Source: Corynebacterium singulare (GTDB taxonomy: Bacteria; Actinomycetota; Actinomycetes; Mycobacteriales; Mycobacteriaceae). Taken from it: a DNA stretch of 64,000 nucleotides. The position numbers and the translations under genes were made by a program. The DNA is taken from the NCBI RefSeq assembly GCF_000833575.1, contig NZ_CP010827.1:1599993-1663992 (forward strand), written 5' to 3'. How positions within the stretch are numbered: the stretch's first letter is position 1; each line of letters begins with the position of its first letter. Shown one piece after another: positions 59,160-63,791 of this stretch. Below the pieces are notes generated by a model, which searched no databases, was not told where the DNA came from, and was given only the letters and a program-made list of their open reading frames with translations.

Positions 59160-60650
59160 GTGGCAGCCACTGATTCTTCAGACCAGGTACTCGGTGAAGG
59201 CGAGAGCACCTCCGAGGCATCTGCACCTGCACAGAAGACCGCCAAGAAGACGGCAAAAAAGACCGCTAAGAAGACGGCAAAGAAAACGGCTAAAAAGACT
59301 GCGAAGAAGACAGCCAAAAAGACCGCCAAGAAGACGGCGAAAAAGACGGCTAAGAAAACCACTCGCAAGTCTGCGCAGAAGGCGACAAAGAAGACAGCCA
59401 AGAAGACTGTCCGTAAGTCTGCGGCCAAGAAGGCAACCTCGCCAGAGGACAACGCTGACACTGAGGCACTCGAGTCTTCGGATGACCTCCACGAGGATCA
59501 AACCGACGAACTGGATACTGATGCGGCCGATGACGCCGACATGGACTTCGACCCGGACAGCGATGACATCGATGATGATGACGAGTTCGGCGATGAAGGT
59601 GAAGACCTTGACGGTGAGGACTCCGATGAGGACGAGGACGATGGATCCTCTGTCTGGGATGAAGACGAGTCTGCTGCTCTGCGCCAGGCGCGCAAAGACG
59701 CAGAATTAACCGCTTCTGCAGACTCGGTTCGTGCCTACCTCAAGCAGATCGGTAAGGTTGCCCTGCTGAACGCTGAGCAGGAGGTCTCCCTGGCAAAGCG
59801 TATCGAGGCTGGACTTTATGCCCAGTACCGCATGGAGCAGATGGAAAAGGCGCGAGCTGAGGGCGACAAGGGCGCCAAGCTCTCCCCTATGGAAAAGCGT
59901 GACATGCGCGCCATTGCTCGTGATGGACGCAAGGCGAAGAACCACCTCCTCGAGGCCAACCTCCGCTTGGTCGTCTCTTTGGCCAAGCGCTACACCGGCC
60001 GCGGTATGGCATTCCTGGATCTCATCCAGGAGGGCAACTTGGGCCTCATCCGTGCCGTGGAGAAGTTCGACTACACCAAGGGCTACAAGTTCTCTACCTA
60101 CGCCACCTGGTGGATCCGTCAGGCCATTACCCGCGCTATGGCGGATCAGGCCCGCACCATCCGCATTCCGGTTCACATGGTGGAAGTCATTAACAAGCTT
60201 GGCCGCATTCAGCGCGAGCTGCTGCAAGATTTGGGCCGTGAGCCAACTCCGCAGGAGCTGGCCAAGGAAATGGACATCACCGAGGAAAAGGTGTTGGAGA
60301 TCCAGCAGTACGCTCGCGAGCCTATTTCCTTGGACCAGACCATTGGTGATGAGGGCGACTCCCAGCTGGGTGACTTCATCGAGGATTCTGAGGCTGTGAT
60401 TGCAGTCGACGCGGTGTCGTTCACCTTGTTGCAGGACCAGCTCCAGGACGTGCTCACTACCCTTTCCGAGCGTGAGGCAGGCGTTGTCCGTTTGCGCTTC
60501 GGCCTCACCGATGGCATGCCGCGCACTTTAGACGAAATCGGTCAAGTCTACGGCGTTACTCGCGAGCGTATTCGCCAGATCGAATCAAAAACCATGTCGA
60601 AGCTACGCCACCCATCGCGTTCCCAGGTCCTGCGCGATTACCTGGACTAG
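59160..60650 (+). CDS. sigA: Primary RNA polymerase sigma factor SigA
   Basis: A 496-residue principal sigma factor. Residues 26-65 are ten perfect KTAK repeats, continuing in a less regular Lys/Ala region to about 90. Residues about 92-170 are extremely acidic. The conserved core then has region 1.2 ([20 protein letters not shown]), 2.1-2.4 ([39 protein letters not shown]), 3 and 4.2 ([20 protein letters not shown]). The GTG at 59160 is the only start that includes the repeat region with sensible upstream sequence (AAAGG). Confidence 0.96.
59235..59354 (+). repeat. Ten 12-bp tandem repeats encoding KTAK in sigA
   Basis: Ten consecutive AAR-ACN-GCN-AAR units. The amino acid sequence is perfect, but third bases vary (acc/acg/act/aca, gcc/gca/gct/gcg), so the array is maintained at the protein level and is not a recent slippage product. 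Confidence 0.9.
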
Positions 60651-60806: not shown

Positions 60807-61068
60807 TCAGTCGCGGTCCCAACCCAGCCTAATGATCAATGCCAGCATCGCCATGAGTAGTGGCGTGTGCTCGGGGCGACGGCCTTCGGCAGGGAGCAGG
60901 GCCACGACAGCTAGCGCGGCAGCACCCGCTCCTGGCCCAGTTGTGAGCACTGAGAGCAAAATCCCAACGACAAGGCGATGAACACAAGCACCAGCGCCTG
61001 CAACGACCACGGATTCGGAGCTGGGTACGCTTCCTTCTGCGGCGGCGCGTTGGGTTCAGCACCTACAA
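60807..61068 (-). pseudogene. Decayed small membrane protein gene at the IS insertion site
   Basis: Read on the minus strand, frame one gives VGAEPNAPPQKEAYPAPNPW and then a hydrophobic LQALVLVFIALSLG. At a GGG run (TTGGGATTTTG) the coding continues only in another frame: ILLSVLTTGPGAGAAALAVV, ALLPAEGRRPEHTPLLMAML and ALIIRLGWDRD to the stop at 60807. One missing G would restore a single two-helix protein, so this looks like a one-base frameshift. No start codon is found upstream. The same sequence with the same frameshift is present in the second repeat copy (62743-62960). The family is not recognised. Confidence 0.5.
60851..61068. repeat. 218-bp direct repeat, left copy (long target duplication of the IS)
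   Basis: Begins CCATGAGTAGTGGCG and ends CAGCACCTACAA. It reads identical to 62743-62960. It abuts the left inverted repeat of the IS exactly, as a target duplication should. The left neighbour base pattern differs outside it. Confidence 0.92.
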
Positions 61069-61079
61069 CCTGACTTAGG
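61069..61079 (+). repeat. Left terminal inverted repeat of the IS
   Basis: CCTGACTTAGG, 11 bases, a perfect match to the reverse complement of 62732-62742; homology decays beyond. Confidence 0.9.
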
Positions 61080-61196
61080 TCATGGGTGGGTGAGTAACGT
61101 CACTCTTGACACTGTTACCTGTTGGTTTTCATCGGCGGGGAGGAATTTTTCCGCACTAAGTGGGTAGTGCCGGGGGTGTTCAGTAGTCTGATTTTT

Positions 61197-62726
61197 GTGA
61201 GTCCTTATATTCGCACCGTCAAGACCGCTTCTGGGGCGACGGCGGTGCAGGTGGTGTTCTCTGAACGCAAAGGTGCGAAAAGGATGAAGCATATCGGCTC
61301 AGCACATTCAGAGTCTGAGCTTGCGCTTTTAAGAGCTGAAGCTCAACGCATCGTCGATGGTGACCAACTCGCAATGGACTTCGGCGAGGTGAAACACATC
61401 CCACCGGCAACAGGCAGCGTTTCCAACCCGCTGCCGGTAGTCGGTCAGCGTGCCGGATACTTGCTGGACTGTATTGATGCGTGTTTCAACGAGTTAGGCC
61501 TTGCTGCAGCAAGCGGTGATGATCCGGTGTTTCGCGATCTGGTGCGTGCCCGGATCATCCATCCCGGCTCAAAGCTGGATTCCATCGAGACTCTTGCCGA
61601 GGTTGGCATCACCAGCGCAAGCTACCGCACTATCCAGAGGCGTCTTCCCACCTTCGCGACCGAATCGTTTGGGGAGACACTAACCCAAGTGTTGGCCCAT
61701 CATGCAGGTATCGGGCCAGGCGCATTCATCTTGTACGACGTGACCACCTTGTACTTTGAAACCGATACTCCTGATGAGCTTCGCAAACCCGGGTTTTCCA
61801 AAGAGCGCCGTGTAGAGCCACAAATCCTTGTCGGGCTGCTTACTGATGCCACCGGGTTTCCACTGCATGTTGGCGCGTTTGCTGGCAACTCGGCAGAAAC
61901 CCACACGATGCTGCCGATGATCACACGGTTCCAAGAGGCCTACCAGCTCGACGAGGTCACCGTCGTTGCTGATGCAGGCATGTTTTCAGCAGCGAACAAA
62001 CAAGCACTCATTGACGCAGGGCTGCACTACATTTTGTCGGTGAAAACCCCCACCGTGCCAGAGGTAATTGAAACCTGGCGGCGGGAAAACCCCGGTGAAG
62101 ACTACACCCACGGCCAGATCTGGACACAAGCCTCGGCAAGCGATGGGCGCAAACACACAACCCCGAATACGGTGACGCATTACCAGTACTCCCACGATCG
62201 GGCTAGGCGCAGCCTGCGCGGAATCAAAGAGCAAGTCGCAAAAGCTAAACGGGCTGTTGACGGCGATATCGCTATCAAGCGTAACCGCTATATCGATCTT
62301 TCCGCTCCGAACAAGAAGGTCAACTACGCTCTTGCTGCCAAACACCGAGCCCTAGCCGGAATTAAAGGCTATGAAACCGACCTGACCGCTCTTGACGCCC
62401 AGGAGGTTATCGGGCATTACCGCAGGTTATTCAACATTGAGAAATCGTTTCGGATGTCGAAATCAGACCTGAAAGCACGCCCAATCTACGCCAGGAAACA
62501 AGACTCGATCACAGCACATCTCAATATTGTGATGGCAGCACTAGCCGTGGCCCACCTGATGGAGACCCGCAGTGGTCAATCCATCAAGCGCCTCGTGAGA
62601 ACACTCAAGAAATACCGCAGCTTTCAACTCGTCATTGGTGACGAAACCATTCACGCCGCCGTACCACTCCCGCCCGACCTCACCGCCACCATCCAGGCAA
62701 TCACCGGCCACGAACTTCCGCACTAA
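61197..62726 (+). CDS. IS1634-family DDE transposase
   Basis: A transposase of 509 residues if the GTG at 61197 is used (VSPYIRTVKTASG, like the usual start of the family); the open frame begins at 61122. The DDE triad fits LYDVTTLYFETD (Asp about 181), VVADAGMFSAANK (Asp about 259) and RRLFNIEKSFRMSK (Glu about 415), the last with the YREK-like Y..RF.IE.SFR arrangement of IS4-superfamily enzymes. There is no frameshift or internal stop, so it may be active. Confidence 0.9.
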   Translation: MSPYIRTVKTASGATAVQVVFSERKGAKRMKHIGSAHSESELALLRAEAQRIVDGDQLAMDFGEVKHIPPATGSVSNPLPVVGQRAGYLLDCIDACFNELGLAAASGDDPVFRDLVRARIIHPGSKLDSIETLAEVGITSASYRTIQRRLPTFATESFGETLTQVLAHHAGIGPGAFILYDVTTLYFETDTPDELRKPGFSKERRVEPQILVGLLTDATGFPLHVGAFAGNSAETHTMLPMITRFQEAYQLDEVTVVADAGMFSAANKQALIDAGLHYILSVKTPTVPEVIETWRRENPGEDYTHGQIWTQASASDGRKHTTPNTVTHYQYSHDRARRSLRGIKEQVAKAKRAVDGDIAIKRNRYIDLSAPNKKVNYALAAKHRALAGIKGYETDLTALDAQEVIGHYRRLFNIEKSFRMSKSDLKARPIYARKQDSITAHLNIVMAALAVAHLMETRSGQSIKRLVRTLKKYRSFQLVIGDETIHAAVPLPPDLTATIQAITGHELPH

Positions 62727-62731
62727 ATTGG

Positions 62732-62742
62732 CCTAAGTCAGG
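62732..62742 (-). repeat. Right terminal inverted repeat of the IS
   Basis: CCTAAGTCAGG, the reverse complement of the left end; it starts five bases after the transposase stop codon. Confidence 0.9.
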
Positions 62743-62960
62743 CCATGAGTAGTGGCGTGTGCTCGGGGCGACGGCCTTCGGCAGGGAGCAGGGCCACGAC
62801 AGCTAGCGCGGCAGCACCCGCTCCTGGCCCAGTTGTGAGCACTGAGAGCAAAATCCCAACGACAAGGCGATGAACACAAGCACCAGCGCCTGCAACGACC
62901 ACGGATTCGGAGCTGGGTACGCTTCCTTCTGCGGCGGCGCGTTGGGTTCAGCACCTACAA
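62743..62960. repeat. 218-bp direct repeat, right copy
   Basis: Reads the same as 60851-61068 at an offset of 1892 bases. It abuts the right inverted repeat. The following 120 bases to the dhaM stop hold no gene I can support. Confidence 0.92.
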
Positions 62961-63080: not shown

Positions 63081-63791
63081 CTAATCGTCGAGACCAGCTG
63101 CGATAGCATCGGCAATCTGATCGATGATTTCCTTGTCCCCTACAGCACCGCTCACCGTGATGGAAGCACCTTGAGTGGCACCGAGCGACATCAGCATCAT
63201 CGCCGAGTCTGCCTCGGCTTCTTCACCGCCGAAGGCAATGGTGATGTCGCCCTCAGCCTCCGCGGCGATCTCAGCAACCTTCGACGCGGGACGGGCGTGG
63301 AGTCCTGCTTCATCGGTCACCGTCACTGCGCGGGAATACTCACCGTCACTGTTCGTTCCACGTTCACTATCTGCTTCTGCAGATTTGGCGTCCTGTGGCG
63401 CAGCGAAAACCTCGATTGCCCTTCCTGCGGCCGCGGACACAGCGTCTAGATCGTCACCTTGCTGGGCGGCGGTAGCAGCAGCGATGGCTGCTTCCACCAA
63501 CGGGGCATCAACAAACCGAACCGAGTCATCCTCTAGGAACTCAAGTACAGATTCCACAGTCATCGTGGCCGATCCCAAGTCAGTGAGCACAACCACACCT
63601 AAGTCTTGTCCAAGGACTTCCTTAATGGCTCCTTCAATGAGGTCATAAGACGTGCCGATTCCGCCGCCCTCGAGGCCGCCGGCAGCGCGGATTGTGACAT
63701 CGGCCGCCATTTGGGTCGAAAGCTCCGCCAAGCCTTCTGCGAGCTTTGCCGAGTGTGACACCAGAACAAGTCCTACTATTGGCTGGGCCAT
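63081..63791 (-). CDS. dhaM: PTS-dependent dihydroxyacetone kinase phosphotransferase subunit DhaM
   Basis: A 236-residue fusion of an EIIA-mannose-like domain and an HPr-like domain that carries phosphate from the PTS to DhaL-bound ADP. The EIIA active His is His 13 (VLVSHSAKLAEG), followed by GTS and DLGSATMTVESVLEF. A charged linker (residues about 132-152) joins the HPr domain, whose phospho-His is His 165 (AGLHARPAS). AGGAGA is seven bases before the ATG. It lies two bases after dhaL. Confidence 0.93.
   Translation of the reverse strand: MAQPIVGLVLVSHSAKLAEGLAELSTQMAADVTIRAAGGLEGGGIGTSYDLIEGAIKEVLGQDLGVVVLTDLGSATMTVESVLEFLEDDSVRFVDAPLVEAAIAAATAAQQGDDLDAVSAAAGRAIEVFAAPQDAKSAEADSERGTNSDGEYSRAVTVTDEAGLHARPASKVAEIAAEAEGDITIAFGGEEAEADSAMMLMSLGATQGASITVSGAVGDKEIIDQIADAIAAGLDD

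Follow-up and report, generated by a model that had tools for sequence, protein, structure and literature searches.

The two junctions of the long duplications flanking insertion sequences (IS) of the IS1634 family tend to differ, one being targeted and the other untargeted, and this asymmetry, read from the sequences of natural insertions, appears to be a new observation. According to the general view, a DDE transposon joins its two ends to the target in a single concerted step and so yields a fixed short duplication, a rule that the IS1634 family breaks. The element that we describe is itself of a known kind; its interest lies in the pairing of a targeted with an untargeted joint, a rule supported by the statistics of natural insertions. 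Unequal joints, together with 5-bp and long duplications from one transposase, turn the coupling of strand transfers into a concrete question that can be tested in vitro. Moreover, an insertion can duplicate as much as 1.27 kb of host sequence, which is enough to copy gene parts or promoters. A passage of a 2008 review states that no model for the long duplications had been proposed (PMC2266710), and no later one was found in a literature made up mostly of papers free of subscription, including passages of PMC11004492, PMC3053259, PMC11708052, PMC9392320 and PMC10359463.

The element and its insertion site

The window (the whole stretch of 64,000 nucleotides of Corynebacterium singulare DNA that was analysed) contains at 61069-62742, on the plus strand, an IS1634-family insertion sequence of 1674 bp, whose borders were set by its inverted ends and by the two repeat copies touching them. 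Its termini, CCTGACTTAGG...CCTAAGTCAGG, are complementary at 11/11 bases and, when the left inverted end (CCTGACTTAGGTCA, 61069-61082, plus strand) is compared with the right one (62729-62742, minus strand), at 13/14. The preliminary description of an element with inverted ends between two 218-bp repeats was exact: the left (60851-61068) and the right (62743-62960) copies of the duplication, which have no strand of their own, are identical at 218/218 positions in a base-by-base alignment. Repeat detection gives 219 bp instead of 218 because base 60850 (G) is the same as the last base of the IS. Chance could hardly produce a perfect repeat of this length, and when the 2.83-Mb genome was searched, the 218-bp segment occurred only at the two places flanking the IS. 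The insertion occurred between sigA (59160-60650, plus strand) and a DhaM-like gene (63081-63791, minus strand), and the three small frames present at this site have no Pfam match. In the N-terminal part of SigA, 12-bp repeats at 59235-59438 encode a lysine-rich KKTA stretch.

The transposase (61122-62726, plus strand) starts with a TTG, as listed, and its frame is open across 534 amino acids, in agreement with the intact look noted at the outset. The IS1634 assignment made at the outset is confirmed by a match of 346.3 bits to the NCBIfam model NF033559.2 (IS1634), for a cut-off of 100; the NCBIfam models of IS4 and IS701 give weak matches below their cut-off. The DDE residues D206, D284 and E440 are invariant in an alignment of nine sequences and nearly invariant in 51 proteins; in the former alignment, Y433 and K447 are also invariant and L436 occupies the place of the arginine of the YREK motif. 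The element thus agrees with the traits given for the family in passages of the review (PMC2266710): a DDE triad with the YREK arginine usually absent, a length of 1500-2000 bp, ends of the form C-----YT, which CCTGACTT fits, and duplications usually of 5-6 bp that become long and variable (8-514 bp) for IS1549 and IS1634, as they are here. Recent transposition is suggested by the open frame and by the presence, in one genome, of three copies that are 98-100% identical. The predicted structure of the transposase (mean pLDDT of 54) was too poor for a fold search, and a sequence search of the PDB gave no relatives at E up to 1.

Length and origin of the duplications

Searching the same genome showed that this IS is present four times, flanked by perfect duplications of 218, 1198, 281 and 79 bp. 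At the scale of the genus, IS DNA was matched in 64 of 242 genomes (two candidates scored per genome), and we fetched 60 loci from 21 of the genus genomes with good copies, plus others from other Actinomycetota and from plasmids. The first 60 loci contained 63 elements, from which L105 and L114 (a 212-bp duplication, outside the 75 insertions described below) were excluded beforehand, and a clean long duplication was present in 45 of the 61 remaining Corynebacterium elements. The other 16 were L101, L102, L116, L118, L120 (twice), L126, L127, L129, L130, L131, L136, L137, L142 and L143 (twice), among which L129 has a 5-bp duplication, while L102 (89% over 816 bp) and L116 (37/39) are aged long duplications. 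A second set, made of 20 loci picked for a visible long repeat and of 12 later ones, yielded 30 insertions after L171 and L258 failed.

Altogether, 75 unique clean insertions carry long duplications of 23 to 1267 bp, with a median of 144 bp and a middle half of 79-289 bp; ten exceed 514 bp and eleven do not exceed 45 bp. A shifted exponential and a lognormal fit this distribution alike, so that its shape favours no particular mechanism, and no helical period was found in the lengths. The duplication of the window, singled out at first for its length, is therefore an ordinary one, given this median and the 1198 bp present in the same genome. Its length and perfection had been read as the record of a recent insertion, but perfection is usual (70/75), so that a perfect repeat is compatible with a young insertion and does not give its age. 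IS1634-type elements with long duplications were also found on plasmids of Persicobacter (33 bp) and Aliarcobacter (680 bp), and the phenomenon is consequently not confined to one phylum.

Several other structures were met during this survey. On the C. faecale plasmid pCFAEC45971a (L217:4350-9545, corresponding to L120), a pair of identical IS1634-family copies encloses two genes for SMR-family transporters and one for a TetR-family regulator; the unit, with a perfect 513-bp repeat at its outer borders, resembles a composite transposon flanked by a long duplication. Units of about 500 bp, in which positions 1-187 of the IS are joined directly to positions 1382-1674 with 68-71% identity, were found at G182:C6:52306-52806, G171:C1:36829-37329, G080:C1:2135827-2136327 and G150:C1:1540556-1541056 and are probably non-autonomous relatives of the IS with an internal deletion. 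Finally, matches to its first 91 bp occur in pairs about 350 bp apart at G115:C17:85429-85885, G155:C35:38222-38692 and G015:C1:667545-667978. At two of the three sites a fragment of the right end adjoins one of the matches, and these pairs are possibly small derived elements.

The initial claim that the duplication was made by the insertion is borne out by relatives of other insertions, in which the segment is present once, and the site of the window found no match in the 60 other genomes sampled. The 147-bp segment duplicated at L228 exists as one copy in plasmid pDF02 (L232), where both flanks are present, and the 102-bp segment of L226 is likewise found once, in L233, with about 450 bp of the left flank and the right flank; L234 presents a single copy of about 590 of the 678 bp of the L230 segment, without the right flank. 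For the 1198-bp segment of the C. singulare genome (L085), a G043 locus (95%) contains 1181 bp, with about 107 bp of the left flank, once, and shorter parts are found once each in loci of G178 and G158, all three comparisons being made on short loci with two candidates scored per genome. A 586-base query for the empty site of the window matched its own genome only among 61 genomes (9 candidates scored per genome), in a sample without G116 and G075, two genomes where the IS is matched at 94-95%. This lack of an empty site in the 60 other genomes would suit an IS landed between pre-existing tandem repeats, a reading that deserves practically no credence in view of the four copies in one genome, each bordered directly at both ends by a perfect repeat of its own, and of the single copies of all or most of the segments of L228, L226, L230 and L085 in relatives.

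Target motif at the two junctions

Both cut sites of every insertion were read inwards, starting in the flank and continuing into the duplicated segment. Among the first 46 insertions, a T at +1 together with an A at +5 was present at 29 of the 92 ends, for 3.7 expected, and was prominent on both sides. To judge from their sequences, these sites resemble the plain 5-bp targets of relatives, roughly YNNNR: in a list of 20 such duplications compiled by hand (L216 was left out as doubtful and 6-bp cases were unused), Y was found at position 1 in 17, R at position 5 in 19 and TNNNA in 7. Counting the TNNNA ends per insertion was possible for 73 of them, since L194 and L195, which are included in the 75, have masked flanks: exactly one end was of this type in 39 insertions, both ends in 2 and neither in 32, meaning that the motif is a preference. 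The 39 partner ends present T+1 in 10 cases and A+5 in 8, which is the background. They are not fully plain, as G-3 is present in 19/39 (p 0.006) and G is rare at +1 (p 0.018), two uncorrected values which may indicate that the partner ends have some weak preference themselves.

The scores of the two ends are anticorrelated when all 75 insertions are compared with random re-pairings (p 0.00036 and 0.00032 on the two measures used). The second set of 30 gave 0.00012 and 0.0018, and the first set of 45 alone gave a weak effect (0.08 and 0.035); because the idea of asymmetry predates the fetching of L235-L274 and postdates that of L177-L231, the second set is only partly independent. When the insertions are divided into thirds by length, both measures show a clear effect in the middle third only (0.004/0.005), the shortest giving 0.058/0.27 and the longest 0.14/0.048. 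A two-class fit, which was better than in 100/100 re-pairings, describes the primary end as T (.74), T (.59), A (.44), any base and A (.72). Applied to the window, this fit places the putative primary junction at the left end of the IS, on TACAA (61064-61068, reading TTGTA, of the TNNNA type, on the minus strand), which recurs at 62956-62960, and the putative secondary junction at the right end, on CCATG (62743-62747, plus strand), which is without TNNNA and recurs at 60851-60855.

The marked junction is not tied to one particular end of the IS (28:28). Taking the origin from dnaA and assuming the terminus opposite, we found no link between the primary side and the direction of the replication fork (28:24, p 0.68) or between IS orientation and replication (32:23, p 0.28). 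Microhomology did not rise above expectation at either junction, and primary and partner 5-mers were no more alike than re-paired ones.

Short and long duplications occur with identical or closely related transposases. The G027 element, with identical transposases, has 5 bp (TCAAA) at L241 and 44 bp at L242; transposases that are 96% identical go with 5 bp at L224 and 93 bp at L257, and those that are 82% identical with 5 bp at L222 and 102 bp at L226. On a tree of 51 rows, the long and short labels need 6 changes, which is fewer than in any of 500 shuffles. In G490, a 5-bp duplication was observed in five of the six fetched copies, the sixth being without clear ends. Other family members present 6-bp duplications centred on TTAG or CTAG (L192, L193, L204, L215, L260, L262-L264 and L274), such as TTTAGT, GTTAGG, TCTAGG and GCTAGC.

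Models of insertion and related elements

We favour, with moderate confidence, an asymmetric insertion of the IS1634-family DDE element as the origin of the long duplications, a mechanism inferred from the statistics of natural insertions. In these insertions one IS end, which may be either one, tends to join a 5-bp target that matches TNNNA (TTANA), and the other joins 23-1267 bp away, without that motif and nearly always in the orientation that duplicates the intervening stretch. The transpososome would take its normal 5-bp target and transfer one 3' end, the second strand transfer would occur further along the opposite strand, with a relaxed sequence need, instead of 5 bp away, and a host polymerase would copy the stretch between the joints by strand displacement. 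The length of the duplication would then be the distance between the two transfers and not a fixed stagger. Finding a complete 5-bp target at one of the joints points to the assembly of a normal target complex there; the partner, which lacks the motif and is at least 23 bp away, points to a different way of making the second joint. This distance might be set by a moving polymerase, by unwinding of the DNA or by loop capture; lengths of 45 bp or less are hard to obtain with loops of bare duplex DNA and easier with unwound DNA. The version with the moving polymerase is a hypothesis in which the transfers are uncoupled: the first end would join a TTANA target, the polymerase would displace a strand and the second end would join, without sequence choice, at the advancing front or near it, the length reflecting the delay. 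We hold this particular version as possible and tentative.

Rather unlikely, in our opinion, is an insertion involving two molecules, in which the ends join sister chromosomes at offset positions and one daughter inherits a duplication and the other a deletion. This scenario would explain long variable lengths without unwinding, and it would also account for the three clean copies without duplication found on chromosome-size contigs (L105, L118 and L137, a choice of ours from which L127, L129, L131 and L136 were excluded as nested, interrupted or degenerate) and for the presence of exactly one TNNNA end in five of the six duplication-less copies examined. These three copies, however, face 55 long-duplication insertions on the same contigs, which argues against a free choice between sister chromosomes (p 0.008 even on the assumption that five of six deletions disappeared), and the scenario does not by itself explain the unequal junctions. 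The six copies with no visible duplication are L105, L118, L126, L127, L101 and L137, of which L101 and L126 are near contig ends; at L118, the right flank was absent near the left flank in the eleven relatives' loci compared. The duplication-less copies could be deletion products or IS-IS recombinants.

The long duplications might also have arisen in two steps, an ordinary 5-bp duplication being lengthened later when one of the IS ends underwent a further event. Such an origin would yield one motif junction and one plain junction, and the same element is known with 5-bp and long copies, but it predicts mostly 5 bp among young insertions, whereas in Corynebacterium the long copies far outnumber the 5-bp ones (45/61 versus L129, with L241 in another genome of the genus), making it improbable. 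A split target, where each end independently uses its own 5-bp site, would place the motif on both sides once the ends are pooled; with both ends TNNNA in only 2/73 and with anticorrelated end scores, it is very unlikely, and its symmetric form, favoured at first, was given up on account of this anticorrelation. The preliminary description had evoked a staggered-cut or repair-based mechanism that is poorly understood; the duplications are indeed unexplained, but a single staggered cut fits poorly because of the statistical difference between the junctions and of the lack of a helical period in the lengths. One long cut by a single rigid complex could formally give any length and is hardly credible in view of these two features and of the spread from 23 to 1267 bp. 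End joining was also considered, and is argued against by the lack of excess microhomology and by the exact IS termini, the latter being presupposed by the duplication search itself.

The asymmetric insertion proposed here concerns an element whose nearest counterparts are IS1634 from Mycoplasma mycoides and IS1549 from Mycobacterium smegmatis, which belong to the same family and likewise present long variable direct repeats. They differ by their hosts, and the repeats described here are longer, 10/75 being above 514 bp, compared with the 8-514 bp given in the corresponding passage of PMC2266710. Other members, for example the G490 elements with ends CCTGACTCGTGCC, share the NF033559 transposase family and similar ends but, unlike the present element, have a fixed short duplication of 5 or 6 bp. 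The IS4 family proper (IS10, IS50/Tn5 and others) has related DDE transposases, for which passages of the same review describe duplications of 7-13 bp and a YREK motif with its R (PMC2266710); the present element departs from it on both points, with L436 at the place of this R and a duplication of 218 bp.
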